IMG/VR virus record: IMGVR_UViG_3300021478_000277
Coordinates: 1-26,714 of that record
DNA length: 26,714 nt
Origin: a virus
Reading direction: 5' to 3' (one strand)
Shown here piece by piece: positions 4,880 to 26,714 of the stretch. Positions within the stretch are counted from its first letter, which is position 1. Each line of letters opens with the position of its first letter. The position numbers were made by a program, and so were the translations under genes. The notes beneath the pieces were generated by a model that was not told the origin of the DNA, did no database searches, and saw only the letters and a list, made by a program, of their open reading frames with translations.

Positions 4880-5266
4880 ATGAAGAAACTCATGGTTGTA
4901 GCGGTACTGATGTTGTCAGCGATTCCTGGTAGGTCACAGTCTAGTGGGACTTACACGCAGACTAATCACGCGTGTCTAATCAACGAGTGCTCCGGGGCGC
5001 AGTTCAGCCCAGCGGCAACGCTCAGCTACACCAACTCGATCAGGTTCTACGGCAACCACACCTTCATCGGGACAGCCACATGGAACGGAACGGAGTACAC
5101 CGACTTTAGCGGCACGTTCACCTACCTGGGGCAGCATGCCGGACGCGCCAACTGGCGGTTGCAGGGCACGTTCGATGCGGGGCATCTGACGGTGACGGAG
5201 GATTGGAACTGCTTCCGAAGCTGTAGCACTGGGGATAACGTGGCTGGGAGCGTAGTGCAGAACTAA
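4880..5266 (+). CDS. Secreted small beta-rich protein with signal peptide
   Basis: The ATG follows GGAGGAG at 4870-4876. The 128-residue product starts with a clear Sec signal (MKKLMVVAVLMLSAIPGRSQ) with cleavage likely around residues 19-20. The mature part is rich in Thr, Gly, Asn and aromatic residues, suggesting beta strands (GTYTQTNHAC, SIRFYGNHTFIG, WRLQGTFDAGHLTVTEDW), and has four cysteines that could form two disulfides. No family is recognised. It may be a surface or periplasmic factor made early in infection or by a lysogen. It is followed directly by a strong hairpin. Confidence 0.7.
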   Translation: MKKLMVVAVLMLSAIPGRSQSSGTYTQTNHACLINECSGAQFSPAATLSYTNSIRFYGNHTFIGTATWNGTEYTDFSGTFTYLGQHAGRANWRLQGTFDAGHLTVTEDWNCFRSCSTGDNVAGSVVQN

Positions 5267-5945: not shown

Positions 5946-6551
5946 ATGAATAGACGCGAGTTCGTTACAACCAGCGGTATCGCGGTAACAATGATTGGGA
6001 CGGTAGGGCTGGAAGGATGCACGTTTGGCTCTGTAATGGCCAATCTGGCTAAATATCTCCCGATTGCGCTCAGGGCTGTGGCCGGCGTGGCCGCTATCGT
6101 GGCACCTGGAATGGGGACCGCGGTAGCTAGCCTGATCGGCTTGATCAACACAGCTTTTGGAGCTCTCCAAGGCGCCGTAAACGACTACAATTCCGCTCCA
6201 GCAGCTTCCAAGCAAACCACGCTTGAGAAAGTCTTGCTAGCTCTAGACCTTGTGCAGGAATACTTAGGCCAGACAATCAAGGCCCTTGGCGGAGGCACCA
6301 ACGCCGCGCTCCAGGGGGCCGAGGCTGCATTATTGCTGATTTCTACCACCCTGGCTAGCATTGAAGCGACTTTGGCTCCCCAAGCGGCTCCTACAGTCGC
6401 CAGCGCGCATTCTACGCATGCCTCAGCACGTTCTGTAAGCTCTGTGACGGTCAACGGCATAACACTGGCGGTATCTGGCAAGCCCGGGGACTTCAAGCGG
6501 GATTTCGACAAGATCATGACCGATGCAGGCCGAGGCGATTTGAAGCTTTAG
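5946..6551 (+). CDS. Predicted Tat-type lipoprotein
   Basis: The ATG follows AAAGGAG at 5935-5941. The 201-residue product begins MNRREFVTTSGIAVTMIG and has a lipobox-like VGLEGC ending at Cys25. Arg3-Arg4-x-Phe is the twin-arginine pattern, so it may be exported folded and then lipidated. The mature part has two very hydrophobic Ala/Gly-rich helices (about residues 38-75), an amphipathic helix (TLEKVLLALDLVQEYLGQ), a further Ala/Leu helix, and a small C-terminal domain ending FKRDFDKIMTDAGRGDLKL. It resembles lipoproteins of unknown function that I associate with soil bacteria. It could act in the envelope, for example in exclusion or lysis control; this is inference. Confidence 0.65.
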   Translation: MNRREFVTTSGIAVTMIGTVGLEGCTFGSVMANLAKYLPIALRAVAGVAAIVAPGMGTAVASLIGLINTAFGALQGAVNDYNSAPAASKQTTLEKVLLALDLVQEYLGQTIKALGGGTNAALQGAEAALLLISTTLASIEATLAPQAAPTVASAHSTHASARSVSSVTVNGITLAVSGKPGDFKRDFDKIMTDAGRGDLKL

Positions 6552-8034: not shown

Positions 8035-8445
8035 TTACCGCACCGCCACCGAAACGTTAGTAGGCGCCACAGGGTTAGATGGCAGGACCGCGGGAAGTAC
8101 CACCGTGGCGATGTTCGAGAACACCGATTCATTCCCGCTGGCGTCTACGGCCGTAGCTGCGTAGGAGTACGTTGCCCCGGGCGTCAACCCAGCAAGCGGA
8201 ACCATGTAAGCAGTGGATAGATCCGGCACAGTGTTCACCTTTGTCCAGAAACTGCTCGTTGCCGTGCATGTTCCAAGGCACTGGTAGATCGAATAAGACG
8301 CCACAGAACTAGTAGACGCCGTAAACGTAATGAACACGCCATGCTGTGTTCCGTTCTGGGCATGGGCCGAGGGGATGAACAAAGCGCACAGCAGCGGTAG
8401 CATTAGCCAGATTATCAGCGTGAGGCAAAGTAGGAGTTTTCTCAT
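8035..8445 (-). CDS. Secreted fibronectin type III-like domain protein (136 aa)
   Basis: The product starts with a Sec signal (MRKLLLCLTLIIWLMLPLLC) with likely cleavage after AHA at residue 29. The mature part is one Ig/Fn3-like beta domain: SIYQC, FWTKVNTVPDLSTAYMVPL, then the characteristic LTPGATYSYAATAVDASGNES loop-and-strand pattern and a final VNVSV-type strand region. Fn3-like domains are common on phage surfaces as adhesive modules, but a signal peptide is not. It is the last of five consecutive genes with export signals. AGGTGA lies just before the next start. Confidence 0.75.
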   Translation of the reverse strand: MRKLLLCLTLIIWLMLPLLCALFIPSAHAQNGTQHGVFITFTASTSSVASYSIYQCLGTCTATSSFWTKVNTVPDLSTAYMVPLAGLTPGATYSYAATAVDASGNESVFSNIATVVLPAVLPSNPVAPTNVSVAVR

Positions 8446-8456
8446 ATAATCACCTT

Positions 8457-11400
8457 TTAGTCCACCGAGTCTACGATAAGCTGTCGTTGGGTCATAGAGT
8501 TGCTGCCGCTCGCCGCCGAGAATGCTCCTGTTATCTGTAAGAACAGTTGAGCGGTTGAGTCGATAGTACCGATTGTAGCAGTGTTGCCGTCAGCGTAAAC
8601 TGCCTCCGCGGCGCTAGTCAGCACCGATACGTCAATGGTTAAGTTGCCATGAACCTCATATGCTGACGAGGCCCCAGCCGTTTGTGTGCTCGCATTCAGC
8701 GTCATGTTAAACGGATCATTGGTCGCTTGAATACCGCCAAGCGCCGCCGATGTGATGCTTGCGAGCGTGATGACTGTGCCGCTACCGCAACCGGAGACGG
8801 TGCATAATTTAGCCTTGAGGTTGACCGCCGTCGTGGAGGCTGCCGGCGTAGAGTAGACTCCCGCGAGCTGGATGAGGACCGTGCGACCGACTAAGTTGAG
8901 CGTGCCCGCAGGAATGGTGCACGCCATAAGCGTCTGGTCGGTGGATACGTTCGCGTTAACGGTGACCGGAGTGACGTTTACGCAGGTGAACTTCCCCGCG
9001 ATGGTGCTGGATGAGATGCCCGAGTCCACTGCGTTGCCGTTAACGTCGTAGCTTAGAAGGTCTGTGTTAGTGAAGCTACCTGTTGCGGCTTGGAGCTTTG
9101 CCCCGGTGCCTTGAACGGTAAGGTTAGTATCAGGGAGTACGAGCGTGCGCGGGACGGTGGCATTGGAGGTTATGGTAGTCTGACCGATAACTTCACTCTG
9201 CGCCCAGACTTTCCCATTTTGGATGCCTGCTAATCCGCCACCAGTAGAAGCTGGGATGCTACCGAACCCGCAGTTGCCACCTTCGTAAGTCCAGCTTAGC
9301 GCTGTAGTCGTAGTGTTGGGGCATGAGCCATTCACTTTCGAAAAATTATTGCCTTGGTCTTGCCATACGTATGTACCTACTCCTGGTAACAACGAAGGAA
9401 GAGTAACGGTGATCTGTTGCGTTGTTCCATTAGACGTACAAGAATTTGAAAGAGGAGAAGCTACTCCACGACCTCCATTCGGATATATCCCTGAGTACAA
9501 AAATTGAAATGTTCCAGCCTCGGCAAATGGTGGACCCCCTGTTATAACTGCGCATGTAGGGGCTGCTGGAACTCCGGGATCTGTGAAGAAAGAATAATTC
9601 GCTCCTAGAATTGAATCTCCGCGTAATACCTGCGCAAATCCACTATTGGCCCCCCCGTCCAGTATGCCCCCAACGGATTGTCCAATAGAAAGATTAAAAT
9701 TTTGCCCGATCAGTGACAAACTGCTAGTTAAAGTTGACATGGTAACCGTGGCAAAAGGATTCCCCGTTAGAGTGGCAATCCCACCGGATGAACCGCTGCC
9801 AATGCCAGAGACAAAGGCGGCCCCGTTTACAGACCAGTTAGCTACAGCAGGTTGGCCAACAGTATCAAGGTTACCGCTCTGCCAGTTTATGCCACCGCCT
9901 ACACCGCGCGACATAAAGGCAAGCACTGGCATGCTTCCGCCTTGAATATCTCCGGCTAAATCCCATGTAACATTACATCCGCCGTTATTGCCAGCAATGA
10001 AGGTAAGGCCGCGGTTTGACAATGTCCCGTAAGCCCGGAAGTTCCACAGACCAGAGTTCTTGCCGATGAAGAGTGGCGTAGCAGTTGAACTAGTTGGTGT
10101 ACCTGCTCCGAATGTTATGTTTCTAAAGATGCCTCCGAATCCTCCTCCAGTAGAAGCCCAGCCGTAGTATTGAACGCCCATTAAGTCGGCACCACTACCT
10201 CCGTTGAACACTGTATCTTCAAAGATCACAGGAGCAGTACCAGTGTTGAAAATAAGATCGTACATATTCGCTGGGCCTTGGAAGGTCAACCCTCTAAAAG
10301 TGCCCCCGCCATTTTTCATATAGATACCTGGGTACGCCGCACCTACAGTAATAGGAGCATGTGACTCAAAAGAGAACTGCCCGCCGCTCATCGTAGCGGA
10401 GCCTCCAGACAGTTGGAGGTCTCCATGCCATTGACCGTTTTGCCAGACTATTGTGTCGTTAAGGATCATCCTGGCACTTTGGGATATGACCGCATATCCA
10501 TTTACGGAACTAATGTCTGCATATGAATTTATGAAGTAATTGTTTGTAGTAACTGAAGGGCTAGAGATATATACTGCTCCACCGCTCGCGAAAGCTGCTA
10601 CTTCTGCCGCAAGTAATGCTGGAGTTGTATCAATCAAAATCGTTGCACCAGCTACGCTATTGGAAGCTGCGTTTGCTGTAGTGATCGAAGTCGTGCCGCC
10701 ACCAGATGCAATGGTGGTAACTAACGTGTCGTTGGTAGCCGCACCAGGAGCTGTCGTCGGCAACCACCCAGGGAAAGTTGCGCTGCCCATCATCGTTGCC
10801 CCAAAGTCATCCCAGGTCATATATGCGACGTCACCTTGGTTGACAGAGTTCACAGGGAGACTAATGCCAATCAAGTTGCAAGTCCCTGGGCAGTTACGAC
10901 CATAGATCGCGTACTGACGTACTCCTGCTGGATTCGTGGTGGGAAGCTGAAGATTGTTGGAGTTCCACCAAGTAGCTGTGCCGCCAGTAGATATTGCGGA
11001 AAGCACTCCGAAGCGAGTATCTATGCCGCTGTTATAAGTGAAGTGCGTGTTATCTGCAACGCTCGTGACGACAAACCAGCCAAAGAACTCCGCTACGTCG
11101 GTCAAGCTGTTTGCGTTGCTGATAAAAACAACAGGACAGCCTGTGATAGTGATGCCGCCGCAGCCAATCGGTAAGCCGTGAGCTGTAGCCGTAGTCACTG
11201 TCGTCACATTGTTAGCGCGAGACTGAGATGTTATATTGACGGTATTCGCGCCGAGTGTGGCTGCTCCTGTAGCTGTCGTCCCTGCCGCACTCGCTGCTGT
11301 TACGCCTTCCCCTGCATCAAAGGCCACAATCTCATAGGCATAGGACGTTGCTCCCGCAGGGCCATTAACAACATACCCCGTCCCTGTAGACCCCTGTGCG

Positions 11401-11894
11401 ATTCTTGGCGTAACAGTAGGCGCAGCAGGAGTACTCAAGACGTTTGTAGCTCCAGCCCCCCAGATATCGATGCCGTCTCCGGTTATCAATCCACAGGCGC
11501 TGCTGAGCGTTGCCGCTGTTAGCCCGGAATTGATCGTAGCCGTACAACCAGGATTACCGGGAGTTCCGCTAGCAGAAACTGCTCTACCTCCGTAAGCAGC
11601 AATATCCACATAAGGATTTGGACCTTTGAACACCGTATTCACGTTGAATTGTAGCGGATTAGGAGACGTTATAGGGCTGCTGAGTGTCGCTGATCCTGGC
11701 CCAATTAAAACCCAGGAACCCGCCAAACAGCCATAGAGATTTCCTGTAGTGGTATCAGTAGCCTTAGATGATCCTGTACAAGCTCCGGTAGGAGCTCCGG
11801 AGAATAGAAGCTCCACACCCCAAGTAGATCCCGTCTGTGCGAACGAATATCCAGACAGGAGCATCAAGACAAAGACAGTGGCAATGATCTTCAT
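8457..11894 (-). CDS. Secreted right-handed beta-helix / pectate-lyase-like fibre protein (1145 aa)
   Basis: The product starts with a Sec signal (MKIIATVFVLMLLSGYSFAQ, cleavage near residue 19). An N-terminal domain with Cys39 and Cys56 follows, then YVDIAAYGGR at residues 95-104, the entry motif of pectate-lyase-superfamily beta-helix proteins. Next come an Fn3-like segment (SYAYEIVAFDAGEG) and a long region of short beta rungs (residues about 420-700) ending in GGG-rich strands. The C-terminus has a probable beta-sandwich (LFLQITGAFSAASGSNSM). Phage tailspikes with such helices bind or cut surface polysaccharide. Catalytic residues cannot be assigned by eye. Sec signal plus several cysteines suggest a mature form outside the cytoplasm. 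Confidence 0.75.
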   Translation of the reverse strand: MKIIATVFVLMLLSGYSFAQTGSTWGVELLFSGAPTGACTGSSKATDTTTGNLYGCLAGSWVLIGPGSATLSSPITSPNPLQFNVNTVFKGPNPYVDIAAYGGRAVSASGTPGNPGCTATINSGLTAATLSSACGLITGDGIDIWGAGATNVLSTPAAPTVTPRIAQGSTGTGYVVNGPAGATSYAYEIVAFDAGEGVTAASAAGTTATGAATLGANTVNITSQSRANNVTTVTTATAHGLPIGCGGITITGCPVVFISNANSLTDVAEFFGWFVVTSVADNTHFTYNSGIDTRFGVLSAISTGGTATWWNSNNLQLPTTNPAGVRQYAIYGRNCPGTCNLIGISLPVNSVNQGDVAYMTWDDFGATMMGSATFPGWLPTTAPGAATNDTLVTTIASGGGTTSITTANAASNSVAGATILIDTTPALLAAEVAAFASGGAVYISSPSVTTNNYFINSYADISSVNGYAVISQSARMILNDTIVWQNGQWHGDLQLSGGSATMSGGQFSFESHAPITVGAAYPGIYMKNGGGTFRGLTFQGPANMYDLIFNTGTAPVIFEDTVFNGGSGADLMGVQYYGWASTGGGFGGIFRNITFGAGTPTSSTATPLFIGKNSGLWNFRAYGTLSNRGLTFIAGNNGGCNVTWDLAGDIQGGSMPVLAFMSRGVGGGINWQSGNLDTVGQPAVANWSVNGAAFVSGIGSGSSGGIATLTGNPFATVTMSTLTSSLSLIGQNFNLSIGQSVGGILDGGANSGFAQVLRGDSILGANYSFFTDPGVPAAPTCAVITGGPPFAEAGTFQFLYSGIYPNGGRGVASPLSNSCTSNGTTQQITVTLPSLLPGVGTYVWQDQGNNFSKVNGSCPNTTTTALSWTYEGGNCGFGSIPASTGGGLAGIQNGKVWAQSEVIGQTTITSNATVPRTLVLPDTNLTVQGTGAKLQAATGSFTNTDLLSYDVNGNAVDSGISSSTIAGKFTCVNVTPVTVNANVSTDQTLMACTIPAGTLNLVGRTVLIQLAGVYSTPAASTTAVNLKAKLCTVSGCGSGTVITLASITSAALGGIQATNDPFNMTLNASTQTAGASSAYEVHGNLTIDVSVLTSAAEAVYADGNTATIGTIDSTAQLFLQITGAFSAASGSNSMTQRQLIVDSVD

Positions 11895-11897
11895 ATG

Positions 11898-12680
11898 TCA
11901 GTTGATTATCCAATAATCGTAGCAAGCTGGGTTAGCCGCTGGCGCTGTGATTGTGATGCTAAAACTAGTCGCCGCTACTTTTGCAGTTATCTCTGGAGGG
12001 TTGAGTGTCGTGTTGCAGGTCACTCCTAGAAGTGTTCCGGTAGTCGTGGCAGAGTCCTGTGTTACAATCACCGAGGAGTTGGCGCTGATCATCGTCGTCG
12101 TGTTCACCGTGCAAACCGTCTCTGCCCCAACACCGCAGGAGAACACTCCTGCTGGAGCCGCACCGCATGCGACCACAGACGGGCTAGCAGCTGTGCCATT
12201 GGCCGCGCATTTGGTAGCTGTAGAGTAAGCAGAAGTATTTATTCCGGTGGAACTAATCGTAGAAAATGCCGCGCCTGTGTAAAAAGCAACTCCTGCTGCT
12301 TGCGATACTAGACTTAGCTGAGAAGCGCCGACGTTATAAAACATTCCTCCAAATGTGGCATTTGTAAAACTGTAGGTCGGAGTTGCCTGTAAACCATTAG
12401 GACCTTGCAGGATGTTGCTCATGATTATAGGGTTCGTACTTGTTCCAGCCACAGCAGGTGCCGTGAACGTAGCCGCGCCGCTCGTACTCCCCGACAACGC
12501 CAGCACCCCGTTACCATTTCCCGCGCTGCTGATCGTGAATGTTGGGCTTGCAAAAGTAAGGCCAGCAGGGAGGCCGCCGCCAGAGCCTCCGCCTATCTGT
12601 GTCTGCCAGGCAATGAGCACTGGACTGGCAAGCAAGAGCAAGATAATCAATAGCTTGGCTTTAGTCAATTTGCCGTACAC
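11898..12680 (-). CDS. Exported fibre-like protein (260 aa, GTG start)
   Basis: The chosen start is GTG at 12680, preceded at five bases by GGAGG; a longer frame from 12836 lies inside the upstream gene and has a non-protein-like beginning. The product begins MYGKLTKAKLLIILLLLASP, a signal peptide or anchor over residues 9-24. The rest is Gly/Ser/Thr/Ala-rich beta sequence of phage-fibre type (FTISSAGNGNGVLALSGSTSGAATFTAP) with cysteines concentrated in the last third (SCGVGAETVCTV, CNTTLNPPEITAKV, NPACYDYW). It overlaps the upstream fibre gene by 16 bases and precedes the 1145-residue gene by three bases. Confidence 0.7.
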   Translation of the reverse strand: MYGKLTKAKLLIILLLLASPVLIAWQTQIGGGSGGGLPAGLTFASPTFTISSAGNGNGVLALSGSTSGAATFTAPAVAGTSTNPIIMSNILQGPNGLQATPTYSFTNATFGGMFYNVGASQLSLVSQAAGVAFYTGAAFSTISSTGINTSAYSTATKCAANGTAASPSVVACGAAPAGVFSCGVGAETVCTVNTTTMISANSSVIVTQDSATTTGTLLGVTCNTTLNPPEITAKVAATSFSITITAPAANPACYDYWIIN

Positions 12681-14698
12681 GTAGTCCTCCACACATCGCT
12701 TGCTGCTGGTGCCGTCGCCGCCGCTACGTCGCTGAACATCTGGAGGGTTACCGAGGTGGTGCTTAGAGCGCCGGTCTGCTGAATGATGAAGTTTGTTGTG
12801 CTGATGGCGCTGGTGTGGCTCGCTTCGCAATGCCAATCAGTAGTCGCTGCTGGCATCGTGATCGTACAGCCGCCAGAGGTAGGCGCTGTCCCGGTGAATA
12901 TGTTGAATGATGCTGTACCGTTTGGATTCTGAATCGCCGCTACTGTTCCGCCGCAGCCTGCTCCTGCTATCGTTGGAACTGTTGTTGAAACCAATAGATT
13001 AGCGCCTATAGACAAAGAATTGTTCAAAGCTAAACCCGCAACGCCCCAAGTGAAGTCGCAGGTTCCCAGAACAGCACTATTACCGCCGTGCGCTAAGCAA
13101 AACGTTGATGCTGTTTGGTTTTGAATCAACCCGAAATTTGCTCCAGAAGCATTGATAATAAATCCCGGTACAAGAAGAGGAGCAGAAAGAAAATTTGGGG
13201 CAATAAGTCCAGTACCGGCTTTGCTGGTAAGCACTTCTAAAGCACCTCCAGCTTGTTCTTTAATGGTAGCGTAATTGGTGCTGGAAACGGGATCGAATGC
13301 AGCAAACGCTATACCCTGGGACGGGTTGTTGACGCCACTGGCTACTGGATTAAAGAGTATCCCCGCATTGCCGTTAATGGTACTTGGTATGTGAGTTGCG
13401 GCAACGTCGAAGTATATTCCAAAAGGCCAGAAACAAGTGGGTGTGCATGCAGGACTCTGAATCGGGTAGCCAATTTCAACGCCTCGACTATCGGTAGGCT
13501 GAGCGTTGAACAATGCATTCACTAGCATTCCATGAGCAAGAGATGTTACAGCGTTCGTGTTAACGTCAAACTCTGCACCGTAGATATTTACCGATGGATT
13601 CGCAGCGACATCGGTAGCTACTGTGTTGATGCCCCACACCCTCCCGTTATTCGTCGTTGTCGCTCGCGCACCGCCGAATAGAGCTACCGCTGCTGTCGCT
13701 GTACCAGATTGATTCTCGACAAACCCGCCTTCGGCATTCGCTTGAAATGTTGTCGAAGAGGCTGGAACAGTAACACAGTTAGTGAATGCTTGCTGACCGT
13801 TCTGGCCGGTGAATACCAGCCTGTACTGCTGCTCTGGGTTGCAACCATTTACACTGGTTTCAAATAGCCCTTGCGTTGTCCGCCCGGTGAAGTTACCAGG
13901 GCCAGTAAGTACCCAAGGGTGCCCGTCGATTATTCTGCTAACGGCATTGCCATTGCGGAAGTCTAGGAAAGTCTGCCCTCCCAAGGGGATGCCAGGAGCG
14001 CCGGCAGAGGACGGAACTGTTGCAGGTATGATTTCGGCTCCAGGTGCTCCCGTAGCAGCTTGTACGGAAGGCAGAATGCCGATAGCTGTGTTAGATACCG
14101 GAGGCTGCGTGCCGCTTGTCGGCGGTGTTGTAGTCTGAGCATCTTGCAAGTTCAAAGCTACAGAAGAATGGCCAAGGAAATAGTTCCCTGCACCACCTGT
14201 TTGCCAGTACACATTGTAGGAAACCGCTCCCGCAGGAGGAGGAAACTCCATCTGCACGCAATATAGGATCGTGGTTGCGCCTCCGGTAACTTCCGCACCG
14301 GCTGCCGGTGGTGATGGAGTAGTCTCGCCAGACGTCCCGCCATTGAAGGTAACTTCGCATTTATAGTTATTGGCTGCTACGGAACCGCCAGTTGCTACCT
14401 GAGACGTGCTTGCGGCGTTAACCGGGGCTGCTACCGTGGCAGTAGTAGAGAATTGATCGGCAAAGGTGATGCTGTTTAGAGTCTTGGTACTAACTGATCC
14501 TAATGGGTTTGTAAAAGTCCATATACCTGTAACCGTGCAATTCAGGTTTGCAGCACAGAAGGTGTTAACTTGGGGGAAAATTAATGGAGTCACTTTTATA
14601 GCGTGGAAACTCGGGATCTTTGGCGCATGGAGCGTGTAGTCATGCGGGCGAGCCGCGGCCGAGGTCGCAAAGAGCAAGAAAATTAGCAGTCGTTTCAT
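12665..14698 (-). CDS. Exported tail-fibre-like protein (677 aa)
   Basis: The ATG at 14698 gives a classic signal (MKRLLIFLLFATSAAA) with cleavage near residue 16; a TTG at 14704 would add two residues and overlap the upstream stop. The mature part starts with an Ile/Phe-rich region containing FCAANLNC, then a fibre-type motif (GIWTFTNPLGSVSTKTLNSI) and a Fn3-like domain with YKCEVTF and VSYNVYWQTGG. A middle beta domain (FLDFRNGNAVSRIIDGHPWV) and a long shaft rich in Asn, Gly and Thr follow. The C-terminal part (CEASHTSAISTTNFIIQQTG then VWRTTCTAN) could be a trimerisation or receptor-binding end. Ten or so cysteines, several paired in sequence, fit an oxidising compartment. Confidence 0.72.
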   Translation of the reverse strand: MKRLLIFLLFATSAAARPHDYTLHAPKIPSFHAIKVTPLIFPQVNTFCAANLNCTVTGIWTFTNPLGSVSTKTLNSITFADQFSTTATVAAPVNAASTSQVATGGSVAANNYKCEVTFNGGTSGETTPSPPAAGAEVTGGATTILYCVQMEFPPPAGAVSYNVYWQTGGAGNYFLGHSSVALNLQDAQTTTPPTSGTQPPVSNTAIGILPSVQAATGAPGAEIIPATVPSSAGAPGIPLGGQTFLDFRNGNAVSRIIDGHPWVLTGPGNFTGRTTQGLFETSVNGCNPEQQYRLVFTGQNGQQAFTNCVTVPASSTTFQANAEGGFVENQSGTATAAVALFGGARATTTNNGRVWGINTVATDVAANPSVNIYGAEFDVNTNAVTSLAHGMLVNALFNAQPTDSRGVEIGYPIQSPACTPTCFWPFGIYFDVAATHIPSTINGNAGILFNPVASGVNNPSQGIAFAAFDPVSSTNYATIKEQAGGALEVLTSKAGTGLIAPNFLSAPLLVPGFIINASGANFGLIQNQTASTFCLAHGGNSAVLGTCDFTWGVAGLALNNSLSIGANLLVSTTVPTIAGAGCGGTVAAIQNPNGTASFNIFTGTAPTSGGCTITMPAATTDWHCEASHTSAISTTNFIIQQTGALSTTSVTLQMFSDVAAATAPAASDVWRTTCTAN

Positions 14699-14700
14699 GG

Positions 14701-16215
14701 TCAAAATGGCCCTTCAAGTCTGAAATGTAGCGCATAAGCCATGGATGTAGCTCCGCTTGTGGCGTATCCCGTAGTCTGATAGCTTATAGCAACACCACTC
14801 TTGGCAAAAAAGTATGGGATACTTGCTCCCAATGCGCTGGAGGTTCCTACAGTATTGGTCGAACTGGTCGTAGTGAGGTTTTGCGTTGCTGCTGTGTTTG
14901 CGTCTCCATCGTTGTAGGTCACTGAGCATACAGGGAGAGTGGAACTGATTGTCGCTGCTTGCGTGATTACCAGATAGCAAGAAGCGCGATAGAATCCATT
15001 GACGGAAGGCGTTACCAATGGCGTTGATGAGACGTTGGCTACTAAGCCAGTCGTATTTGCAGCTGTTACCACTATAGGAGGCGTAGCCAAAGGGCGTATT
15101 TCATTCGGGAAAAGGTCGATTGCAGTGACTCCGCCAGCCCCGGTTAAAAGGACTCTACCAATTACCTGCCCTCCAGAAGTTGGGAAAGTCGCTGAGCCGG
15201 AATCGTGGCAAGTTCCTGTCAAAGTAGAGCTTATTTGCACGTAGTCTCCTGCCGTTGTGGCACCATCGAATATGCAAGGAGTCTGGCCTACAGTGCTGAT
15301 GGAAGATGTAGGGCCGTTCCCGCAAGTTGAAATACAAACGCCTATAGCCCCGCCAGTATCCGTAGTAGCGGTAACGATTGCGCAAGCGCTGGCTGTAGGA
15401 CATGAAACGGTTGTCAGCTTCGCAATCTGGTTAAGGCCAGTTCCTACACCGGTATTGTTGTTGAAAACCGATACGACATTCCCGCTGAAAGTACCGCCAT
15501 TGATCACAGGGCTAGTCAGCGTTTTGTTTGTCAGTGTGTCTGTGGTATTCCGGCCTACCAGCGTGTCGGTGGTTATCGGGAATGTCAGCGTAATGGCTCC
15601 TGCCGGTGCTGGAGCATTTAGAGTAGTGGTGTTTGGCGAGGTCCCTAGCACTAATTGGTTCACGCTTGGCGTAATCTTGATTGGCTGGCTGAAAGTCTGC
15701 ACGCCTGACCAAGTGTTGGAGAGCGATAGCAGGCCAAGCTGGCCGGTAATGCCATCAACGGACCAGATTTGCGTGCCTGTAGCGCAGGCCACCCCGCCAG
15801 CAGAGAAAAGAACCAATTTGTAGCCCTGTGAGGTAAGCCAAATGCTTGCACGGCCTCCAGCGTCAAGAATGATCGGATTTGTCGATGCAGTTAGCCCCGT
15901 AGAATCAACATATGTAGCCTGTGGCGTACTAGTACCTGCTGCATACGAAAAAACGCACCCACCTGCCAATGGGACTCCGTTGTTCGAAAAAAACTGCAAT
16001 TTAGGTTCTGGCGACAAGGATACCGCAACTTGCGCTTTGGTTGTTGCACATAAAGTGAAAAGTGCTATAATGGCAACTACGAGCCTAGCAATTGCAGGTG
16101 GGCGACACGCGCAGAACAAATTCAGAATCGCCGAGATTATAAGCCTCGGTGCGATATAGGTCGGAAGCGCATAACTATTTCCGGTCGTAGCTGGAGATAT
16201 GCGTAGTCGTTTCAT
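14701..16215 (-). CDS. Tail-fibre/tailspike protein with N-terminal export signal (504 aa)
   Basis: The ATG at 16215 overlaps the stop of the upstream ejection-protein gene (ATGA). After a long N-region, a hydrophobic segment (LVVAIIALFTLCATTKA, residues 45-61) ends with a TKA-Q cleavage-like site. Directly after it comes the domain seen at the extreme N-terminus of many tailspikes: PKLQFFSNNGVPLAGG, then YAAGTSTPQATYVDSTG and NPIILDAGGRASIWL (residues 71-127). A shaft motif DTLVGRNTTDTLTNKTLTSP (about residues 214-233) is typical of tail fibres, and a C-terminal beta domain follows. In P22-like phages this is the place of the tailspike gene. The signal before a head-binding-type domain is anomalous. 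Confidence 0.78.
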   Translation of the reverse strand: MKRLRISPATTGNSYALPTYIAPRLIISAILNLFCACRPPAIARLVVAIIALFTLCATTKAQVAVSLSPEPKLQFFSNNGVPLAGGCVFSYAAGTSTPQATYVDSTGLTASTNPIILDAGGRASIWLTSQGYKLVLFSAGGVACATGTQIWSVDGITGQLGLLSLSNTWSGVQTFSQPIKITPSVNQLVLGTSPNTTTLNAPAPAGAITLTFPITTDTLVGRNTTDTLTNKTLTSPVINGGTFSGNVVSVFNNNTGVGTGLNQIAKLTTVSCPTASACAIVTATTDTGGAIGVCISTCGNGPTSSISTVGQTPCIFDGATTAGDYVQISSTLTGTCHDSGSATFPTSGGQVIGRVLLTGAGGVTAIDLFPNEIRPLATPPIVVTAANTTGLVANVSSTPLVTPSVNGFYRASCYLVITQAATISSTLPVCSVTYNDGDANTAATQNLTTTSSTNTVGTSSALGASIPYFFAKSGVAISYQTTGYATSGATSMAYALHFRLEGPF

Positions 16216-17516
16216 TGCGCTCCCATCTTAGCCTTAACCAGCATAGAATCGCGTGTTTTTCTGTCAGCCAGCTTGTAGCGCTGGTAGGCTTCGGGATCCT
16301 TCATGATTCTCTGCAATGCTTCTCCTTCGCTCAATGGATTGATTGGGCCAGCCCTGGTTGCGCGTATCTGCTGAGCCAGTTTCTCGCCTTCTGTGGGCTG
16401 GTCATAGGCTGTAGAGACGCCTTTCAGGAAGGTGCGGCGCTCCGGGCCTGTGTAAGTTTCGCTGTCGGCTACGCGGCGCTCGCCCGCCAAGTCGCTTAGA
16501 TTCGCCTCTTGCCGCGGCCCTGGATAGCCTACACCTTCTTTTGGCGTGTAGATGACGGGCTTGTTGAGGTTCTGGAGCACGTCTCCGGCTCCTGGTGCGC
16601 CTCGCTGGGCGGCTGCTGGCAACTCAGTTTCTCTGCCAATCGACCACATGGCTCCTGGGCGGTCGCTGGGCAGCGGTGCGCGGGGCTCGGGGATGACGGA
16701 AGTATCAGGCGGAGCGTTCTTGGCAGCTTGGCTGTCGGCAAAGCGCTTCTTGGCCGCGGCCAGTCTATCCGCTGTTTGCTGGCGCTTGACTGCCGCTGCT
16801 TGCTCTGTGGCGTCCTGCGTCTCCAGCTTCCCTCTGTCAGATAGGAACTTTTGGCGAGCCGTTTCCGCTGCTGTCATCTGGTCTTGCAGCTTTGCGGCAG
16901 TGGCCTCCCCCGCTTGGGCCTTTGCTGCTGCCAATGCTTCAGGTGGAGCTGGAACAAGTGATCTTATGAGATTCTCTGGCATCTGCGTAGGGTGTAGGAC
17001 TGATTTAGCGATAGTCGATAGCTCTGGAGTTCCATCAGCCGCCACTTTGCCGCTAAAGAATAGCTTGCTGAGGCCAGATTTAAGCTCTGGAGCGACCGCT
17101 CCAAGGCCCTCGAGCGCGCCAGTAGTTCCTCCCCATATAGCGCCAGCTTTGGCCGATTGTCCTGGGTCTACTGTGCCAGTCGTGGCGAACTGCCCAGCAG
17201 CGTTACCAGCCGCCGCACCTCCGCCAGTGCCCAACATGCGTACAATCGTTCCCAAGACGCCGCGCAGGGCTGGAACAGATTCACCGCCGAGCACGCCACC
17301 AGTTGTCTCTGCCGCCGATACTGCACCAGCCTTCTTGCCTGCATCAAACTCCGGCTGGTCCTCGGGATTCTGCATCTTCTGGCCAGCCTGAGCTGAAGTC
17401 ATGTTTTGTAAGAAACGCTGTCTGGCCTTCTCGCTAGGCGAAAGAACTGAGGTATCCGGTGTAATCGTGATGGGATTAGCTTGCGCGTCGGGCGTAATGG
17501 TTATTGTGCCACCCAT
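16212..17516 (-). CDS. DNA-ejection/internal virion protein, gp16-position (434 aa)
   Basis: The product begins MGGTITITPDAQANPITI and has a low-complexity, Ala/Gly-rich composition with hydrophobic glycine-rich stretches (TGGGAAAGNAAGQFATTG; AGAIWGGTTGALEGLGAV), followed by an Ala/Lys/Gln-rich coiled coil (about residues 200-270) and a C-terminal region with Tyr/Arg/Pro. Ejected proteins of P22-like phages (gp7, gp20, gp16) show this mix of membrane-active and coiled-coil segments and sit between the tail accessory genes and the tailspike. The identity is by composition and synteny rather than by a signature motif. The start overlaps the upstream gene by 16 bases. Confidence 0.6.
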   Translation of the reverse strand: MGGTITITPDAQANPITITPDTSVLSPSEKARQRFLQNMTSAQAGQKMQNPEDQPEFDAGKKAGAVSAAETTGGVLGGESVPALRGVLGTIVRMLGTGGGAAAGNAAGQFATTGTVDPGQSAKAGAIWGGTTGALEGLGAVAPELKSGLSKLFFSGKVAADGTPELSTIAKSVLHPTQMPENLIRSLVPAPPEALAAAKAQAGEATAAKLQDQMTAAETARQKFLSDRGKLETQDATEQAAAVKRQQTADRLAAAKKRFADSQAAKNAPPDTSVIPEPRAPLPSDRPGAMWSIGRETELPAAAQRGAPGAGDVLQNLNKPVIYTPKEGVGYPGPRQEANLSDLAGERRVADSETYTGPERRTFLKGVSTAYDQPTEGEKLAQQIRATRAGPINPLSEGEALQRIMKDPEAYQRYKLADRKTRDSMLVKAKMGAQ

Positions 17517-19000
17517 TTGCCCCCCTTGACCACGTATGGCTTGCCATCAGAGCCTTTTCCTGTCTGCCCTTCTTTCAGTCCGTTGGACGAGCCTCCAGCG
17601 ACGTGCTGTGTAGTGGAATCACCAGCCCTTTTCTGGTAGTACGCGCCAGCCCCGCCCTGCTTGGAGTGCGTCTGATAACTCTCTGGCCGGGCGTTGTCGA
17701 TGAAGGTCTGCACGGAATCAACGTTGCTGCCAAGTGCGCCCTTGACCGCTTCCGGCCCATTCTTGAAGTGGTTCAGGAGGTTGGCTTCTGTCTCCTTTAC
17801 GCCTTCTTGCGAGCGGAATCCGTGAACGCCTGAATTGGCCATAGCAATGTTGTGGATGCGGTTGCCAATGGCTGAAATATCGGGATCGTTGTTGCCAATC
17901 ATCTGCTCTACGTTTGTGAACCTGCCAGAGATAGCGCCAACCAGGTCAGGACGCTTGGCGAGCGAAGCGTTTACAGCAGTGGCGTTCTCCGAGATGTTCT
18001 CGGCCAGTTCAGCCTTTTTCTTCTCGTCGGCGGTGACTTTTGGCTTCCATTCTGAGCCAGCTGTCGCAGCAGCGGTAGCGGAGGCCTTTGCAGCAGCCGC
18101 AGCAGCTTCATTCTGGACCTTCTCAGGGCTTAGCAGGATATTGGCTCGCGCTGCGCCTTCTGCCTTAGATAGCGCCAGTTTGTTGGCCTGTATGTCTGGG
18201 TTTAGCGCCTCTTCTGTCTTGCCAGCTTCGGCTGACGCTTGGCTGAGTACGCCTTTTGCACCTTCGAGGTCGCCCCTTTGCAGGAAGAAATTGGCTTGTG
18301 ACTTGTAGCGCTGGTTGGCTCCGCTGGTGGTCTTGCCTGTTGGCGGAAAGATTTGGTCTAGCTGCTTATCCATTGCACCAGATTGCAGGCCTGATTGCTG
18401 CTTGACCTTCAATTGGGCAAGAGCGGCATCTTGCTTGTCCTTTTCTGCTTCGGCTTTCTTTAGATAATCAGCAGTGAACGCAGACATCCCCATCAATGAC
18501 TTCTGTAAGCCCTGGAGTTGTTCGGGATTTTGATAATTCATGGCTTTGGCGTGTTGCGGATCGAGCCACTGATTCTGTACGGCGTTTTGCTTGAATGCTT
18601 CAAAGGCTTGCGGCTGCTTATCAGGGTCTTGCTGGAGCACGTTGTCAATGCCAGCGGCTATATGTTGGTTTTTGTCGTTCTGTGTCTCGAATTGCATCTT
18701 GGCGGCATCGGCATCATTCTTGATGGTCTGTGAAGCCTTGGCGTGCATGTCGAGGATGTGCGACTGCATCCCTACAACTGACTGCGCGGAAGCTCCATTC
18801 TTTCTTAGCAGATCTACGTAATCATTGAAATCCTTGCCATCCCATTGCTGCATGGCTCGCTGGCCAGCTTGTTGGTCTTGCAACTGGATTTGCTGTTGCT
18901 GGTTCTGCATGGCAAGATTCTTTAACTGCAAAGCCTTAGCTTGCTGGTCAAGCACATTAGGCTGTTGCTGAATCGACAAAGCCGCTAGAGGTACGCCCAT
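17501..19000 (-). CDS. DNA-ejection/internal virion protein, gp20-position (499 aa)
   Basis: The product is strongly Gln-rich at its N-terminus (LQLKNLAMQNQQQQIQLQDQ) and coiled-coil through most of its length, with long Ala/Lys/Gln helices. A recognisable globular part is at about residues 370-450 (NRIHNIAMANSGVHGFRSQE, then AVKGALGSNVDSVQTFIDNA) and a Gly/Ser tail ends KEGQTGKGSDGKPYVVKGG. This tail resembles the 'G.DGKPYVVK' ending of several phage internal virion proteins as I recall. Position and composition match an ejection protein that forms the trans-envelope DNA channel. Start ATG follows the upstream stop directly. Confidence 0.65.
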   Translation of the reverse strand: MGVPLAALSIQQQPNVLDQQAKALQLKNLAMQNQQQQIQLQDQQAGQRAMQQWDGKDFNDYVDLLRKNGASAQSVVGMQSHILDMHAKASQTIKNDADAAKMQFETQNDKNQHIAAGIDNVLQQDPDKQPQAFEAFKQNAVQNQWLDPQHAKAMNYQNPEQLQGLQKSLMGMSAFTADYLKKAEAEKDKQDAALAQLKVKQQSGLQSGAMDKQLDQIFPPTGKTTSGANQRYKSQANFFLQRGDLEGAKGVLSQASAEAGKTEEALNPDIQANKLALSKAEGAARANILLSPEKVQNEAAAAAAKASATAAATAGSEWKPKVTADEKKKAELAENISENATAVNASLAKRPDLVGAISGRFTNVEQMIGNNDPDISAIGNRIHNIAMANSGVHGFRSQEGVKETEANLLNHFKNGPEAVKGALGSNVDSVQTFIDNARPESYQTHSKQGGAGAYYQKRAGDSTTQHVAGGSSNGLKEGQTGKGSDGKPYVVKGGKWVAQ

Positions 19001-19813
19001 TTACGGTTGCCCTCCAAGAAGATTAGCAACAGTATCACCTGGATTTGTACCCGCAGGGATGCCAGGGATCCCTCCAGTTGGACCAAGCATAGAAAGTTGC
19101 GCTAGGTTGCTAAGACCACCAATACCAGCATTGGCTACTCCGGCATAGCCGCTAGCCGTGGCCGCTCCTTGATTAAGCAGGCTGTTTCCAATCTGCTGGC
19201 CACTGCCTAGCAATGTGTTGCTGATATTATTGGCGGCTCCCTGGCCTTGCTGTCCAAGCTGGCCTGCCGCGGTTTGCCCAGCTCCAGCTACTGAAGCTAG
19301 CCTGTTGAACTGATTGGCTTGGTTCTGCTCAAAGATGTTGTAATTCTGCTGATACTGACCTAGTGCCCGGTTGTAGACGTTTGAATATTCGTTTGAAGCA
19401 TAATCCTGCCCGTATTGCTGGATGGCTTTGGCCGTACCCCCAGTAAGGAGGTTTCCGCTAGCCGCCGCGGAGTTTTGCAGAGCTTGATTGCCTTGCTGAA
19501 GCCTGAATTGATAGCCAGGATCATTTTGCTCAGTGGCCCCTGTAGGCGCTTGGAATTGCTGGTTCCATGGCTGGAAATTCTGCGCCAAATTTGATAGTTG
19601 GCCGACAGCACCTTGCCCAGCTTGGAGCCATGGCGCCATGTTCTTTTGCTGGGTATTCCATTGCTGCTCTTGGAATTGAAGAGCTTGCTGGGCATTTTGT
19701 GATTGGAGACTGGCGGCATTGCCAGCTGCTCCAGCTTGTGTACTGGCAGCAAATCCGGCACCAACAGCTCCAATAAGAGCTCCACCGCCTATCGCTATGG
19801 CAACAAATGACAT
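19001..19813 (-). CDS. DNA transfer/ejection protein, gp7-position (270 aa)
   Basis: The product begins MSFVAIAIGGGALIGAVGAG, a glycine-rich hydrophobic segment that can insert in membranes, followed by a Gln/Ala-rich helix (NAQQALQFQEQQWNTQQKNM) and WLQAGQGAVGQLSNL. The DPGYQFRLQQGNQALQNSAA motif and the QQYGQDYASNEYSNVYNRAL region with a regular Asn/Gln/Tyr pattern are typical of phage 'DNA transfer protein' homologues as I remember them. It would be packaged in the virion and ejected with the DNA. It overlaps the upstream cupin-like gene by 19 bases. Confidence 0.7.
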   Translation of the reverse strand: MSFVAIAIGGGALIGAVGAGFAASTQAGAAGNAASLQSQNAQQALQFQEQQWNTQQKNMAPWLQAGQGAVGQLSNLAQNFQPWNQQFQAPTGATEQNDPGYQFRLQQGNQALQNSAAASGNLLTGGTAKAIQQYGQDYASNEYSNVYNRALGQYQQNYNIFEQNQANQFNRLASVAGAGQTAAGQLGQQGQGAANNISNTLLGSGQQIGNSLLNQGAATASGYAGVANAGIGGLSNLAQLSMLGPTGGIPGIPAGTNPGDTVANLLGGQP

Positions 19814-20814: not shown

Positions 20815-22623
20815 TTATGCTCGCTTTCCTAGTTCCTTTACAAGCCGTTCTTGCGGCTGGAATCCTGGCGTCGCCATTAGGTAGGCATCCACAATCCGCC
20901 ACGGGATAGGGTCAGACACTGAAACTTCGTAAACTCTGTCCCTGGACCTTCCCATACGCCTCCAGATGGCACGCTTGGTGTATTCCCCAGTCTTTCCGCA
21001 GTCTACCATGTAAATATTCGACCAGGCATGCCCGCCATCGTTTGACCATCGCAGCATCGCTTGCGGACCTCGAGCTAGCGCCGTGAAGTTCTGCGAAGTG
21101 GTCAAAAGCCCCAGCGTCGTCACGCCCAAGTACCAAGCTGTAGTCCCTGTTATGCTGAACATCTGGATTTGCGTTGGGTTGGCGGCATTGAATGCTACCG
21201 AAGTCGTTGTAAGCAGTCCTAGCGTGGTAATGCCTAGCTGCCAAGAAACTGTGTTGCCTGGATTGTTCAGGATGATTGGCACAACTGCGCCCGTTGATCC
21301 TGGCGTGCTTTGCAGCAAGCCTGCATCTGTTACTGTCACTGACCACAAGACCAAACCTGAGTCCTGCAAGGTAACGACTGTCGGAGCTCCACTGCCGCCT
21401 TGCAATGGAGGCGATGGCCCTAGCCCTGTCTCAAAGTCTACTTGCAGCTGATGATGGAAGATCCATTCTTGCTCGCTAGCTATATGCGGTGCTCTGCGGA
21501 CCCGTCTAATCGGATTGCCAAAGTCTGAGAAAATGTTCGTGCTCATGTTATAGACAGCGCCTGTAGTGTAATCCCCGACAAGGTGCATGCCGAAGTTGTA
21601 GGTATGGAATCGCGCTCTATGCGCTGTAAAAAATCCTGCGTTGTTCCAGTAGCCACGCTGATGCCACATCCCGGTTGCTACGTCGTAGACCCAGGTGGCG
21701 CTGGCTGTCGGGAAGTGCAGCACGTAGTAACTATGCCCTGAGTCCTGATAGCAGTAGGCAATCGCGTCTGTAAGTGTGGTGTACTGGCTCCAGGCATACT
21801 CCACGGCATGATTAGAGACTCTTGTAGGGCTGTAGCCTTGCGCTCTCCAGACAATTCCTGCGCCTCGTTCGTCACCGCCAAGCCAAAACACCGAATTATC
21901 CAAGCGAGCCGAGGACAAAGCTGCTATTGCTCCTTGCTCGAGGAAGCCTCCAGGGACTGGCTGAATAGCGTTTAGCAGCGTTCCAGCATTGTAGAGCACA
22001 ATCGACTTGTTGCCACCCCATAGCCATAGTTCCCTGTGATCGGCTAGCGAAGACACCACATTATCGGCAAAAAGCGAGACTTGGCTGACATTGGCGAGGT
22101 TCCAAGTGGTTGAATCTTCGAGGTTTGACAGCTGAAAAGTGTTGGAATTGGCTACTACAGCGATAAAGAAGCCATCAATGAAGTGCACTGCCTGCCACGG
22201 CCCTGCCTGCATCGCTACTGGTACTTGCGTCAGCGTGTTGGTGGCTAGGTTGAAGCTATAGCCTAAGCCTCCGGAAGCTATCAGTATTTGCGAGTTGCCC
22301 GGCGCTCCGCCGACCGTCATTGACACTGGATTGCCGTCGTTAATGATTCCTGTGTAGGTGATTTTGGTGCCATTCGACAGCAATTCAAACAGGCTGGTGC
22401 CAGCCACGAAGAACGTGCGGCCGTTGAATGCAGGCAAAGTGCCTCTGACAGGGTCGTTGCCAAGCGTGTAAAGCAGGCTCAGCCCTGGTGTAGGATAGAG
22501 GTAAGATCCAGCCTTGCCACCGCCTGACTCGTTCGTTTCGACGAGCCAGTTCATCGTCAACTGAGCATCGGCATTGACGCTCTGCGACTGGTACGATGGA
22601 CCGCATAGGCCGAAACGAGCCAA
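20815..22623 (-). CDS. gp10-like tail hub / packaged-DNA stabilisation protein (602 aa)
   Basis: The product begins MARFGLCGPSYQSQSVNADA and then NWLVETNE, the conserved start of the P22 gp10-type tail accessory or stabilisation proteins, followed by a region of about 300 residues of WD-like beta-propeller strands (AFNGRTFFVAGTSLFEL; WQAVHFIDGFFIAV). It starts at a TTG (22623) right after the upstream stop, with GAGGAAG before it. Between about residues 430 and 515 there is an inserted repeat of W-x-L-G-x-T-T-L-G-L-L-T-T type. The C-terminus reads LRWSNDGGHAWSN and KRAIWRRMGRSRDRVYEVSV, as in related proteins. The product closes the portal channel and binds the tail fibre or needle in P22. 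Confidence 0.8.
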   Translation of the reverse strand: MARFGLCGPSYQSQSVNADAQLTMNWLVETNESGGGKAGSYLYPTPGLSLLYTLGNDPVRGTLPAFNGRTFFVAGTSLFELLSNGTKITYTGIINDGNPVSMTVGGAPGNSQILIASGGLGYSFNLATNTLTQVPVAMQAGPWQAVHFIDGFFIAVVANSNTFQLSNLEDSTTWNLANVSQVSLFADNVVSSLADHRELWLWGGNKSIVLYNAGTLLNAIQPVPGGFLEQGAIAALSSARLDNSVFWLGGDERGAGIVWRAQGYSPTRVSNHAVEYAWSQYTTLTDAIAYCYQDSGHSYYVLHFPTASATWVYDVATGMWHQRGYWNNAGFFTAHRARFHTYNFGMHLVGDYTTGAVYNMSTNIFSDFGNPIRRVRRAPHIASEQEWIFHHQLQVDFETGLGPSPPLQGGSGAPTVVTLQDSGLVLWSVTVTDAGLLQSTPGSTGAVVPIILNNPGNTVSWQLGITTLGLLTTTSVAFNAANPTQIQMFSITGTTAWYLGVTTLGLLTTSQNFTALARGPQAMLRWSNDGGHAWSNIYMVDCGKTGEYTKRAIWRRMGRSRDRVYEVSVSDPIPWRIVDAYLMATPGFQPQERLVKELGKRA

Positions 22624-25087: not shown

Positions 25088-25732
25088 TTATGCCTTACGA
25101 GATGGATACCAGAGCTGCGATGTCAAACTGCCGTCCAGAACAAAGTCAATGAACGTTCCGGCCGTCAAAGCAGCTACTGTTCCAGCAATCGCAATGCCTG
25201 TTCCACCGCCACCCGTCGCCCATGCCGCCGTACCATCCGTGATGATGGTGATACGAGTGCCGTTGACGTAGTTTTCCTCTGTGCTTGAGCCGGTGTAGCT
25301 CAGCAAGGCAGAAGTTGGCGGCTGCATGTTGGTGATGCTGGCAGAGCCGCTGACGTGGAAGAAGCCGCTGGGGCATACGATGCTGGCGGCAGAAGCTACG
25401 ACTGGGCCAGGCATCATAAAGCCAACTTCTGGCTGGACGATGCTGAATGCCTGGATGGCAGGCTTGAAGCCCAGAAAGTCAGCTGGCAGCCCTGATACGA
25501 TCGGAGCCAAAGCGTTGTGGCTCATCGCCCTGGTTCCGCCTACGCCGCGCTGCACTGTCACCACGACGCCGCTTACCGCTGTGACCAGCATCAATTCCTG
25601 GTCGCAGAGAATGTAGGTAATGCCTGCTCCAGTGTTGAATACTGGCGAGGTAATACCCGTAGCGGACGTTACGCTGAATACGGTCTGGTTGGGAGTCGTT
25701 GCGCCAACGATGGTTGTGTAGTTTAGGCTCAT
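25088..25732 (-). CDS. Structural protein next to the coat gene (214 aa)
   Basis: The ATG at 25732 overlaps the coat gene stop (ATGA); an earlier in-frame GTG/TTG-type start is not needed. The product begins MSLNYTTIVGATTPNQTVFS and is rich in short beta strands (YILCDQELMLVTAVSGVVVT VQ; GTRITIITDGTAAW). The motif MLVTAVSG...VQRGVGGT resembles small phage capsid or decoration proteins. No named family is assigned. A head decoration or stabilisation role is inferred from position just downstream of coat. Confidence 0.6.
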   Translation of the reverse strand: MSLNYTTIVGATTPNQTVFSVTSATGITSPVFNTGAGITYILCDQELMLVTAVSGVVVTVQRGVGGTRAMSHNALAPIVSGLPADFLGFKPAIQAFSIVQPEVGFMMPGPVVASAASIVCPSGFFHVSGSASITNMQPPTSALLSYTGSSTEENYVNGTRITIITDGTAAWATGGGGTGIAIAGTVAALTAGTFIDFVLDGSLTSQLWYPSRKA

Positions 25733-26714
25733 GATGCCACCCTGCAAGCAAGCTCGGGATAGAGCGTTGTCCAGCCGTACAGAACGTCAGTACGAGTCGG
25801 GAAACGATCTGTATTAATGTCATAGGCGCGAACGAGGCGAATGGAGATGCCTAGCTGCTTGTCAGCAACGCGAGCCGCCATGTCAACCCCACCCGGCAGC
25901 GGAAGATCCGCAGAACCAAGCGCAAAAGCATCCTTGTGGAATGCCAGTGCTTGAGGGCTTGATACGTTAGCTGCTGAAAGGCCGCCCAGCAAGTTGATAC
26001 TGACGCCGTTGCCTGGAGCTGCGGTAACGTTTTGGAACGGTCCGCTGGTAACGATTGCCGGCGATATCGTGAAGGTCATTGCACCGCCGCCTGTAGCTGT
26101 CGCGTTGGCTGTCACTACGAACTGCCGTAGCGCGCCAGTCGAAGCCTTGGACTGCGTATTGACCGCATATACGCCAGTTGCGCCAGAACCGAAAGTAATG
26201 ACATTCCCTGCCAGCAGCGTTGAAGTCGTTACCGTCCAGTTGCCTGATACGATAGATGTTGCTGTCGAGCCTGCCAGCGTGTAGGTAGGCTGCAAAATGC
26301 CATAGTTGCCCATGACATTGATGCCTACGTTCTGGTCCATTGACCACTTCATGCCAATCGACCGCCCCATTGTGCCTTCTTCGTACTGCCGGGCAATCTC
26401 GCTGGACTCTTGAAAGAGGCCTTTGAGAGTGTCAATGATAGTCGCCTGCATGGCTGGTGAAATGACCAAGCTGCGCAGATTGTCACGTGGCGCTGCTTCC
26501 TCATCGAGTCGCTGGCCAGCTTGCAAGTAGGTCAGAAGCGCGTTGGGAACCGTGCCAGGCGTGCCAATCACGTTGTTTACGTTCAGGTACTGTTGCATGC
26601 CGTCGTAGTCGATGTGGTTTGCAATGTTGGCAATCGCTGGACGAATGAAACGGTCGCTGAAGTCGTCAATGGATAGTGCGAGGTCTTGCGAGGTAAATGC
26701 AATGTCTACGCCTT
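25729..26714 (-). CDS. P22-type major coat protein (5' partial at right edge)
   Basis: The frame is open to the right edge, so the N-terminus is missing. The visible 327 residues contain the pattern of P22 coat (gp5, HK97 fold) proteins: LALSIDDFSDRFIRPAIANI, NVIGTPGTVP, AGQRLDEEAAPRDN, RSLVISPAMQATIIDTLKGL, IARQYEEGTMGRSIG and KWSMDQNV. An Ala/Thr-rich insertion-domain-like region follows, and the C-terminus has ISIRLVRAYDINTDRFPTRT with DVLYGW, also typical. A GGC-TAC-GAC segment before MQQYLN is part of the conserved sequence, so the ATG at 26598 is internal. It forms the capsid lattice. Confidence 0.88.
   Translation of the reverse strand, partial: GVDIAFTSQDLALSIDDFSDRFIRPAIANIANHIDYDGMQQYLNVNNVIGTPGTVPNALLTYLQAGQRLDEEAAPRDNLRSLVISPAMQATIIDTLKGLFQESSEIARQYEEGTMGRSIGMKWSMDQNVGINVMGNYGILQPTYTLAGSTATSIVSGNWTVTTSTLLAGNVITFGSGATGVYAVNTQSKASTGALRQFVVTANATATGGGAMTFTISPAIVTSGPFQNVTAAPGNGVSINLLGGLSAANVSSPQALAFHKDAFALGSADLPLPGGVDMAARVADKQLGISIRLVRAYDINTDRFPTRTDVLYGWTTLYPELACRVAS

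Follow-up and report, generated by a model that had tools for sequence, protein, structure and literature searches.

Predicted export of the tail spike and fibre proteins of a P22-like podovirus, and a proposed stage of assembly outside the cytoplasm

Tailed phages are taught to assemble wholly in the cytoplasm, and it is presumed that their tail fibres, too, are produced and joined to the particle within the cell. The usual spike of a P22-like phage is likewise a cytoplasmic protein that lacks a signal peptide. The locus described here lies in the window, that is, the whole of the IMG/VR record IMGVR_UViG_3300021478_000277 (26,714 bases, classed linear), which, judged from its gene order, is a fragment of a P22-like podovirus. 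Its spike gene resembles those of the P22 type, of cyanophage Pam1 (7eeq) and of phage PBR31, in that a homologous head-binding domain is encoded in single copy directly after the genes for the internal or ejection proteins, and it differs from the usual spike in carrying a signal, as do 33-34 relatives. This gene is the first of five consecutive signal-bearing genes that probably form the tail spike and fibre module of the phage. The conservation of the signals, the placement of the cleavage site, the linked Cys pairs and the host phylum argue strongly that the spike and fibre proteins are exported from the cytoplasm.

The preliminary description of this stretch, made from the letters alone, had proposed that five consecutive genes start with export signals, four of them with typical cleavage sites, that the products are rich in Cys, and that the 504-residue protein carries a tailspike-type domain after its signal. 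The analysis bore out each of these points. All five open reading frames (ORFs) and their hydrophobic N-termini are present on the minus strand (Table 1), four of them with good signal peptidase I sites. The 504-residue protein (...RLVVAIIALFTLCATTKA/Q) has a leader (residues 1-61) that ends TKA/Q and is unusually long when counted from the ATG; an internal TTG start would give a normal signal of 29 residues. Its head-binding domain, which covers approximately residues 62-158 and matches solved head-binding domains in profile searches, holds a Cys pair formed by C87 and the Cys of GGVAC. The AlphaFold model of this protein is poor, with a mean predicted local distance difference test score (pLDDT) of 42, and gives no basis for judging a trimeric β-helix body. 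The 677-residue protein (MKRLLIFLLFATSAAA/R) shares 76% identity over its first 62 residues with an otherwise different protein (L167), an arrangement usual in fibres, whose attachment end is constant and whose tip varies. A protein in L166 (L003 contig) is related to it as well. The site of the 260-residue protein (MYGKLTKAKLLIILLLLASPVLIA/W) is the weakest and least typical of the five. For the 1145-residue protein (MKIIATVFVLMLLSGYSFA/Q), no relative was found in families, PDB or viral contigs, and the 136-residue protein (MRKLLLCLTLIIWLMLPLLCALFIPSAHA/Q) has a sub-threshold Fn3 match and signal-bearing homologues in L039, L043 and L057. In the order given, the five proteins contain 13, 14, 6, 17 and 4 Cys. 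No Pfam match at E 0.1 was obtained for the 504-, 677-, 260- and 1145-residue proteins, the family searches assigned the 677-, 260-, 1145- and 136-residue proteins to no strong known family, and the PADLOC models of defence and exclusion did not match the proteins.

Signals were called with a heuristic of our own (charge, hydrophobic core and AxA site) and not with SignalP. As its absolute scores are rough, weight is put on the contrasts between gene classes and between homologues, which are independent of those scores. The gp7-like ejection protein, used as the query for related loci, retrieved 47 contigs, of which 41 could be parsed. In these, strict signal calls fell on 52 of the 79 genes that lie just downstream of the ejection genes, as opposed to 15 of the 395 upstream and ejection genes (p 1e-35, to be taken as a guide only because genes on related contigs are not independent), and the Cys content was 1.9% in the distal genes and 0.7% in the upstream and ejection genes. 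The signals of the distal genes are not due to chance, and, since the block is kept in related phage genomes, where the preliminary description had proposed to look for the signals, it is not the peculiarity of one odd genome.

The domain that follows the signal of the 504-residue protein recurs in 102 viral ORFs. Narrower alignments served for pattern scans, as the alignment A1 of this domain had too much diversity for them. The A1 profile found its best match in the tail spike of Pam1 (7eeq_A, E 7.3e-16) and also matched the tail spikes 9vyg/9vyh (E 1e-12 to 3e-14). The N-terminal domain of the Pam1 tail spike attaches to the tail nozzle (PMC13243795). A signal is present in 34 of the 102 homologues by our criteria and in one more (L057) by eye, which leaves 67-68 unsignalled. 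These N-termini have the features of Sec signals processed by signal peptidase I, namely a positive n-region, a hydrophobic core and small residues at -3 and -1; among the 33 distinct signal-bearing sequences, A or S stands at -3 in 24 and A, G or S at -1 in all. The Gln that directly follows the cleavage site in 32 of the 33 is the more independent sign, because the site search itself allowed only A, G or S at -1. In 22 of the 33, three residues separate the predicted cleavage site from the first model position, and the initiator Met of most unsignalled homologues is found 3-4 residues before that same position. The cleavage point thus coincides with the start of the unsignalled forms, which indicates that the signal was cleanly added before an ordinary spike, or cleanly lost.

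A Cys pair within the domain accompanies the signal in 31 of 34 signal-bearing homologues and occurs in only 1 of the 68 others (p 1e-21), this one being L057, whose signal was recognised by eye. The positions of the pair vary, being GGC...GGVxC in the group of the window, CxGC in others, and different again in L037 and in L007 and L023. Pairs at varied positions would be expected if disulfides had arisen several times in an oxidising compartment. In the tree of the domain, many forks of which are poorly supported, the signal-bearing rows cluster (6 changes versus 32 in shuffles). A test of signal against Cys on independent pairs had too few supported pairs for significance, and the link between the two is therefore drawn from the counts and from the varied Cys positions. 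Each of 24 whole records of relatives, some of which may be fragments, has exactly one head-binding match, and a second head-binding protein was found in none of these records. The predicted exported protein is therefore the only candidate for a spike of this family, with no unexported one in reserve.

The distribution of the signal follows the host. Among named genomes that were scanned, Acidicapsa dinghuensis (on a 1.16-Mb scaffold) and one Acidobacteria metagenome-assembled genome have homologues with a signal, and Burkholderia, Paraburkholderia and Ramlibacter have homologues without one. In wider surveys, the signal is present at 12 of 13 loci in Acidobacteriota genomes (nine by score; L141, L149 and L186 by eye) versus 1 of 14 in Pseudomonadota genomes, so that the exported form appears to be mainly a trait of phages of Acidobacteriota. 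The window virus belongs to a family of soil viruses, and its host, assigned by kinship and not directly, is probably a member of this phylum. The single positive locus of Pseudomonadota (L178) encodes a head-binding protein with both the signal and the Cys pair, apparently gained independently. An Acidobacteria chromosome (L158:9628-11358, G1000; also L159 and L160) encodes a signal-bearing head-binding protein that stands alone, with no evident phage genes nearby, possibly as a result of domestication or as a prophage remnant.

Export signals also occur on a further protein of the virion module. Members of the family of the 214-residue protein, whose gene follows that of the coat, carry signals in eleven relatives (L007, L021, L023, L032, L042, L043, L048, L049, L090, L130 and L162), Acidicapsa among them. 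The Met of the unsignalled forms falls at the cleavage point of the signalled ones, which contain at least 4 Cys, versus mostly 0-2 in the unsignalled forms. The family matches are tail and tail fibre proteins. The model of the window protein (pLDDT 82) gave partial fold matches only, with no PDB match below E 1e-3, and its viral matches are largely tail-fibre-like or unnamed proteins. Among cultured phages, PBR31, BcepC6B and Rhodoferax phage P26218 each have an unsignalled spike or tail fibre gene and, one or two genes further on, a gene whose product bears a signal. In PBR31 this is gp35 (L168:10154-10963), annotated as structural and encoded by the gene after the spike, which begins MKKLIALFSLFCTSAFG and matches the tail fibre family phrog_11393 over residues 36-269 (E 1e-15); its counterparts are gp19 of BcepC6B (tail fiber; L173:7001-8074) and gp24 of P26218 (L169:10718-11227). 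The database records carry no comment on the signals of gp35, gp19 and gp24, and the available passages of the PBR31 paper are silent on that of gp35 (PMC10975493).

Along the minus strand of the window, the phrog_283 head protein is followed by the 214-residue protein, small proteins, the phrog_578 and phrog_598 proteins, the 499- and 434-residue proteins and the five signal-bearing genes. The succession of coat, gp10-like, gp7-like and internal proteins and then spike in one operon is that of a P22-like phage. Cultured relatives name the counterpart of the Hc3/gp10-like protein 'packaged DNA stabilization protein', and the cultured Xanthomonas phage PBR31 shares this order, with gp10-like protein, adaptor, acetyltransferase, internal proteins A, B and C, tail spike, structural protein, holin and lysozyme. 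The 434-residue ejection gene is translationally coupled to the tailspike gene, the ATG of which overlaps its stop codon, and the spacings from this ejection gene through the five genes are -4, -4, -16, +3 and +11 nt.

Table 1. Features of the late operon in the window, from upstream to downstream on the minus strand
Feature	Position	Strand	Basis or remark
Major head protein, C-terminal part, cut by the record end	25729..26598	-	phrog_283, E 9e-45
214-residue protein, adjoining the coat gene, unsignalled in the window	25088..25732	-	
602-residue head closure protein Hc3, P22 gp10-like	20815..22623	-	phrog_578, E 2e-98
270-residue gp7-like DNA ejection protein	19001..19813	-	phrog_598, E 1.6e-33
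499-residue second internal/ejection protein, no Cys, no signal	17501..19000	-	synteny with PBR31
434-residue third internal/ejection protein, no Cys, no signal	16212..17516	-	placed as PBR31 internal protein C
504-residue tailspike protein, predicted exported	14701..16215	-	leader and head-binding domain
677-679-residue fibre-like protein, predicted exported	12665..14704 (or start 14698)	-	signal SAAA/R
260-residue protein with signal-like hydrophobic N-terminus	11898..12680	-	GTG start, GGAGG upstream
1145-residue fibre-like protein, predicted exported	8457..11894	-	signal SFA/Q, 17 Cys
136-residue small protein, predicted exported	8035..8445	-	signal AHA/Q

The plus strand of the window holds four further items. 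In several of its open frames, a low-complexity repeat (1-260) at the cut end of the record codes for Ala/Thr/Arg/Asp or Pro/Arg. An ORF at 22857-23279, which runs against the direction of the structural genes, resembles an HNH homing endonuclease (EPNHKDGNKFNNHIDNLE). Two more products look exported, namely a signal-bearing protein of 128 residues (4880-5266) and a protein of 201 residues (5946-6551), lipoprotein- or Tat-like, which starts MNRREF and has LEGC later.

These data are best explained if spikes and fibres become attached to the particles at lysis, outside the cytoplasm, and we regard this as probable. For the fuller model, in which assembly is split between two compartments, our preference is slight. 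DNA-filled particles would be made in the cytoplasm, and spikes, fibres and, in some relatives, the further virion-module protein would leave through Sec, become oxidised in the periplasm and be added to the particles only at lysis. Each product would be made late in infection with a cleavable Sec signal peptide and sent to the periplasm, where, after cleavage by signal peptidase I, spikes and fibres would fold with disulfide bonds. Meanwhile, heads would be assembled and filled in the cytoplasm and given their portal, adaptor, gp10-like plug and ejection proteins. Upon lysis, the finished particles would meet the ready-folded spikes and fibres, which would bind to the tail via the conserved head-binding domain. 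The exported spikes are taken to be those of the virion because they retain this domain, are present in single copy and are encoded at the late-operon position of a spike; as the inner membrane would keep them apart from the heads until it opens, they would be attached at lysis. In lysates, P22 tailspikes are able to join heads that are already complete, and the decoration protein Dec binds mature particles and P22 capsids, so that late attachment is biochemically plausible.

Several observations weigh against this model. A few members of the signal-bearing clade have no signal, L012 cleanly so, and export is therefore not strictly needed. In L029 (~9300-9400) the signal (MKITKIVFFALFITCFTSVSQ) lies upstream of the spike in another frame, and the spike could use its own ATG; either an error in the sequence or a signal in decay could account for this. 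It may also be that some of the exported fibre-like products never enter the virion; the signal score is a heuristic, and the solitary chromosomal protein of L158 implies that the exported domain may have another use. That last protein also lends support to the main rival, which takes up one of the three readings offered by the preliminary description. Here the exported proteins would act on the producing cell, coating or trimming the polysaccharides of its surface, which would keep progeny from re-adsorbing to debris and shut out other phages. Bacteria do export proteins of the tailspike and fibre type, such as WceF (PMC7949094) and Bdellovibrio MAT (PMC10769870), and lambda encodes the exported outer-membrane protein Lom (PMC12309495). 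We nevertheless consider this reading rather unlikely, as dozens of lineages have kept the head-binding domain, the 24 records have no other copy of it, a virion that lacked the exported protein would be devoid of a spike of this family, and the position and coupling of the gene are those of a virion spike. A dual role, in the virion and at the host surface, is possible.

The preliminary description had also considered that the hydrophobic segments might be anchors in the virion or infection channel. In this reading, the N-termini would stay uncleaved and hold the proteins either in the particle or, while the genome enters, in the host membrane. Long leaders (61 residues in the window; also in L037 and L023) and the gp7-like ejection protein, which is likewise hydrophobic at its N-terminus, agree with this idea, which is improbable given the positive n-region, the hydrophobic core and the AxA-type site followed almost throughout by Gln, the match between cleavage point and native N-terminus of the unsignalled homologues, and the Cys pairs that accompany the signal. 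Assembly outside the cytoplasm thus fits best among the three readings, and surface coating persists as its main competitor. The same description had pointed to signal-less homologues as a sign of wrongly called starts. Such homologues exist, mostly in phages of other hosts, and their Met is at the cleavage point. Wrong start codons or assembly errors, with the true proteins beginning after the hydrophobic stretch, might be suspected from some TTG or GTG starts and from the frame of the L029 signal; this artefact was rejected as highly improbable, since the signal form is conserved across dozens of contigs and host genomes, several genes have an ATG with a Shine-Dalgarno-like sequence, and the Cys pairs are linked to the signal. 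It is also improbable that the proteins are lysogenic-conversion cargo (morons) and not virion parts. That four of them belong to no strong known family would suit such cargo, but their genes overlap or abut inside the late operon, and the 677-residue protein has the conserved N-terminus and variable C-terminus of a fibre.

If the model is true, tailed phages would have a second, extracytoplasmic stage of assembly. Their receptor-binding proteins could then make use of disulfide bonds, and a particle from one infected cell might take up spikes made by another. Very few phages have been studied from Acidobacteriota, a major phylum of the soil, and genes of this kind would be filed wrongly by any annotation that counts a signal peptide against a virion role. 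The small version in the cultured phages PBR31, BcepC6B and P26218 makes the question testable now.

In PBR31 and the other cultured relatives inspected, the spike starts with Met, unlike that of the window with its signal and Cys pair; PBR31, BcepC6B and P26218 thus differ in exporting, by prediction, one small protein only, the spike itself being signal-less. The literature searched, which did not extend to subscription papers, yielded no account of tail spikes exported in phages of this kind. To our knowledge, the decoration proteins Dec of phage L and gpD of lambda have no signal peptide, and their synthesis is assumed to be cytoplasmic. They resemble the proposed spikes as virion parts that bind only mature particles, and Dec binds P22 capsids in vitro with nanomolar affinity (PMC6449081). 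Phage proteins of diversity-generating retroelements (DGR) are stated to lack signal peptides (PMC6199706). The MAT fibres of Bdellovibrio form trimers that resemble phage fibres, with a beta-rich domain behind the signal peptide, and they differ in being encoded by bacterial genes for prey recognition and not by a phage (PMC10769870). Their S74 domain has no match in the 504-, 677-, 260- and 1145-residue proteins, although MATs devoid of S74 also exist. WceF of Pantoea is exported and has a tailspike fold, and it differs in its Tat signal and in being a bacterial polysaccharide enzyme within a biosynthesis cluster (PMC7949094). Lom of lambda is likewise exported and encoded in the tail region, between the spike and the side fibres, but it is an outer-membrane beta-barrel and not a fibre (PMC12309495).

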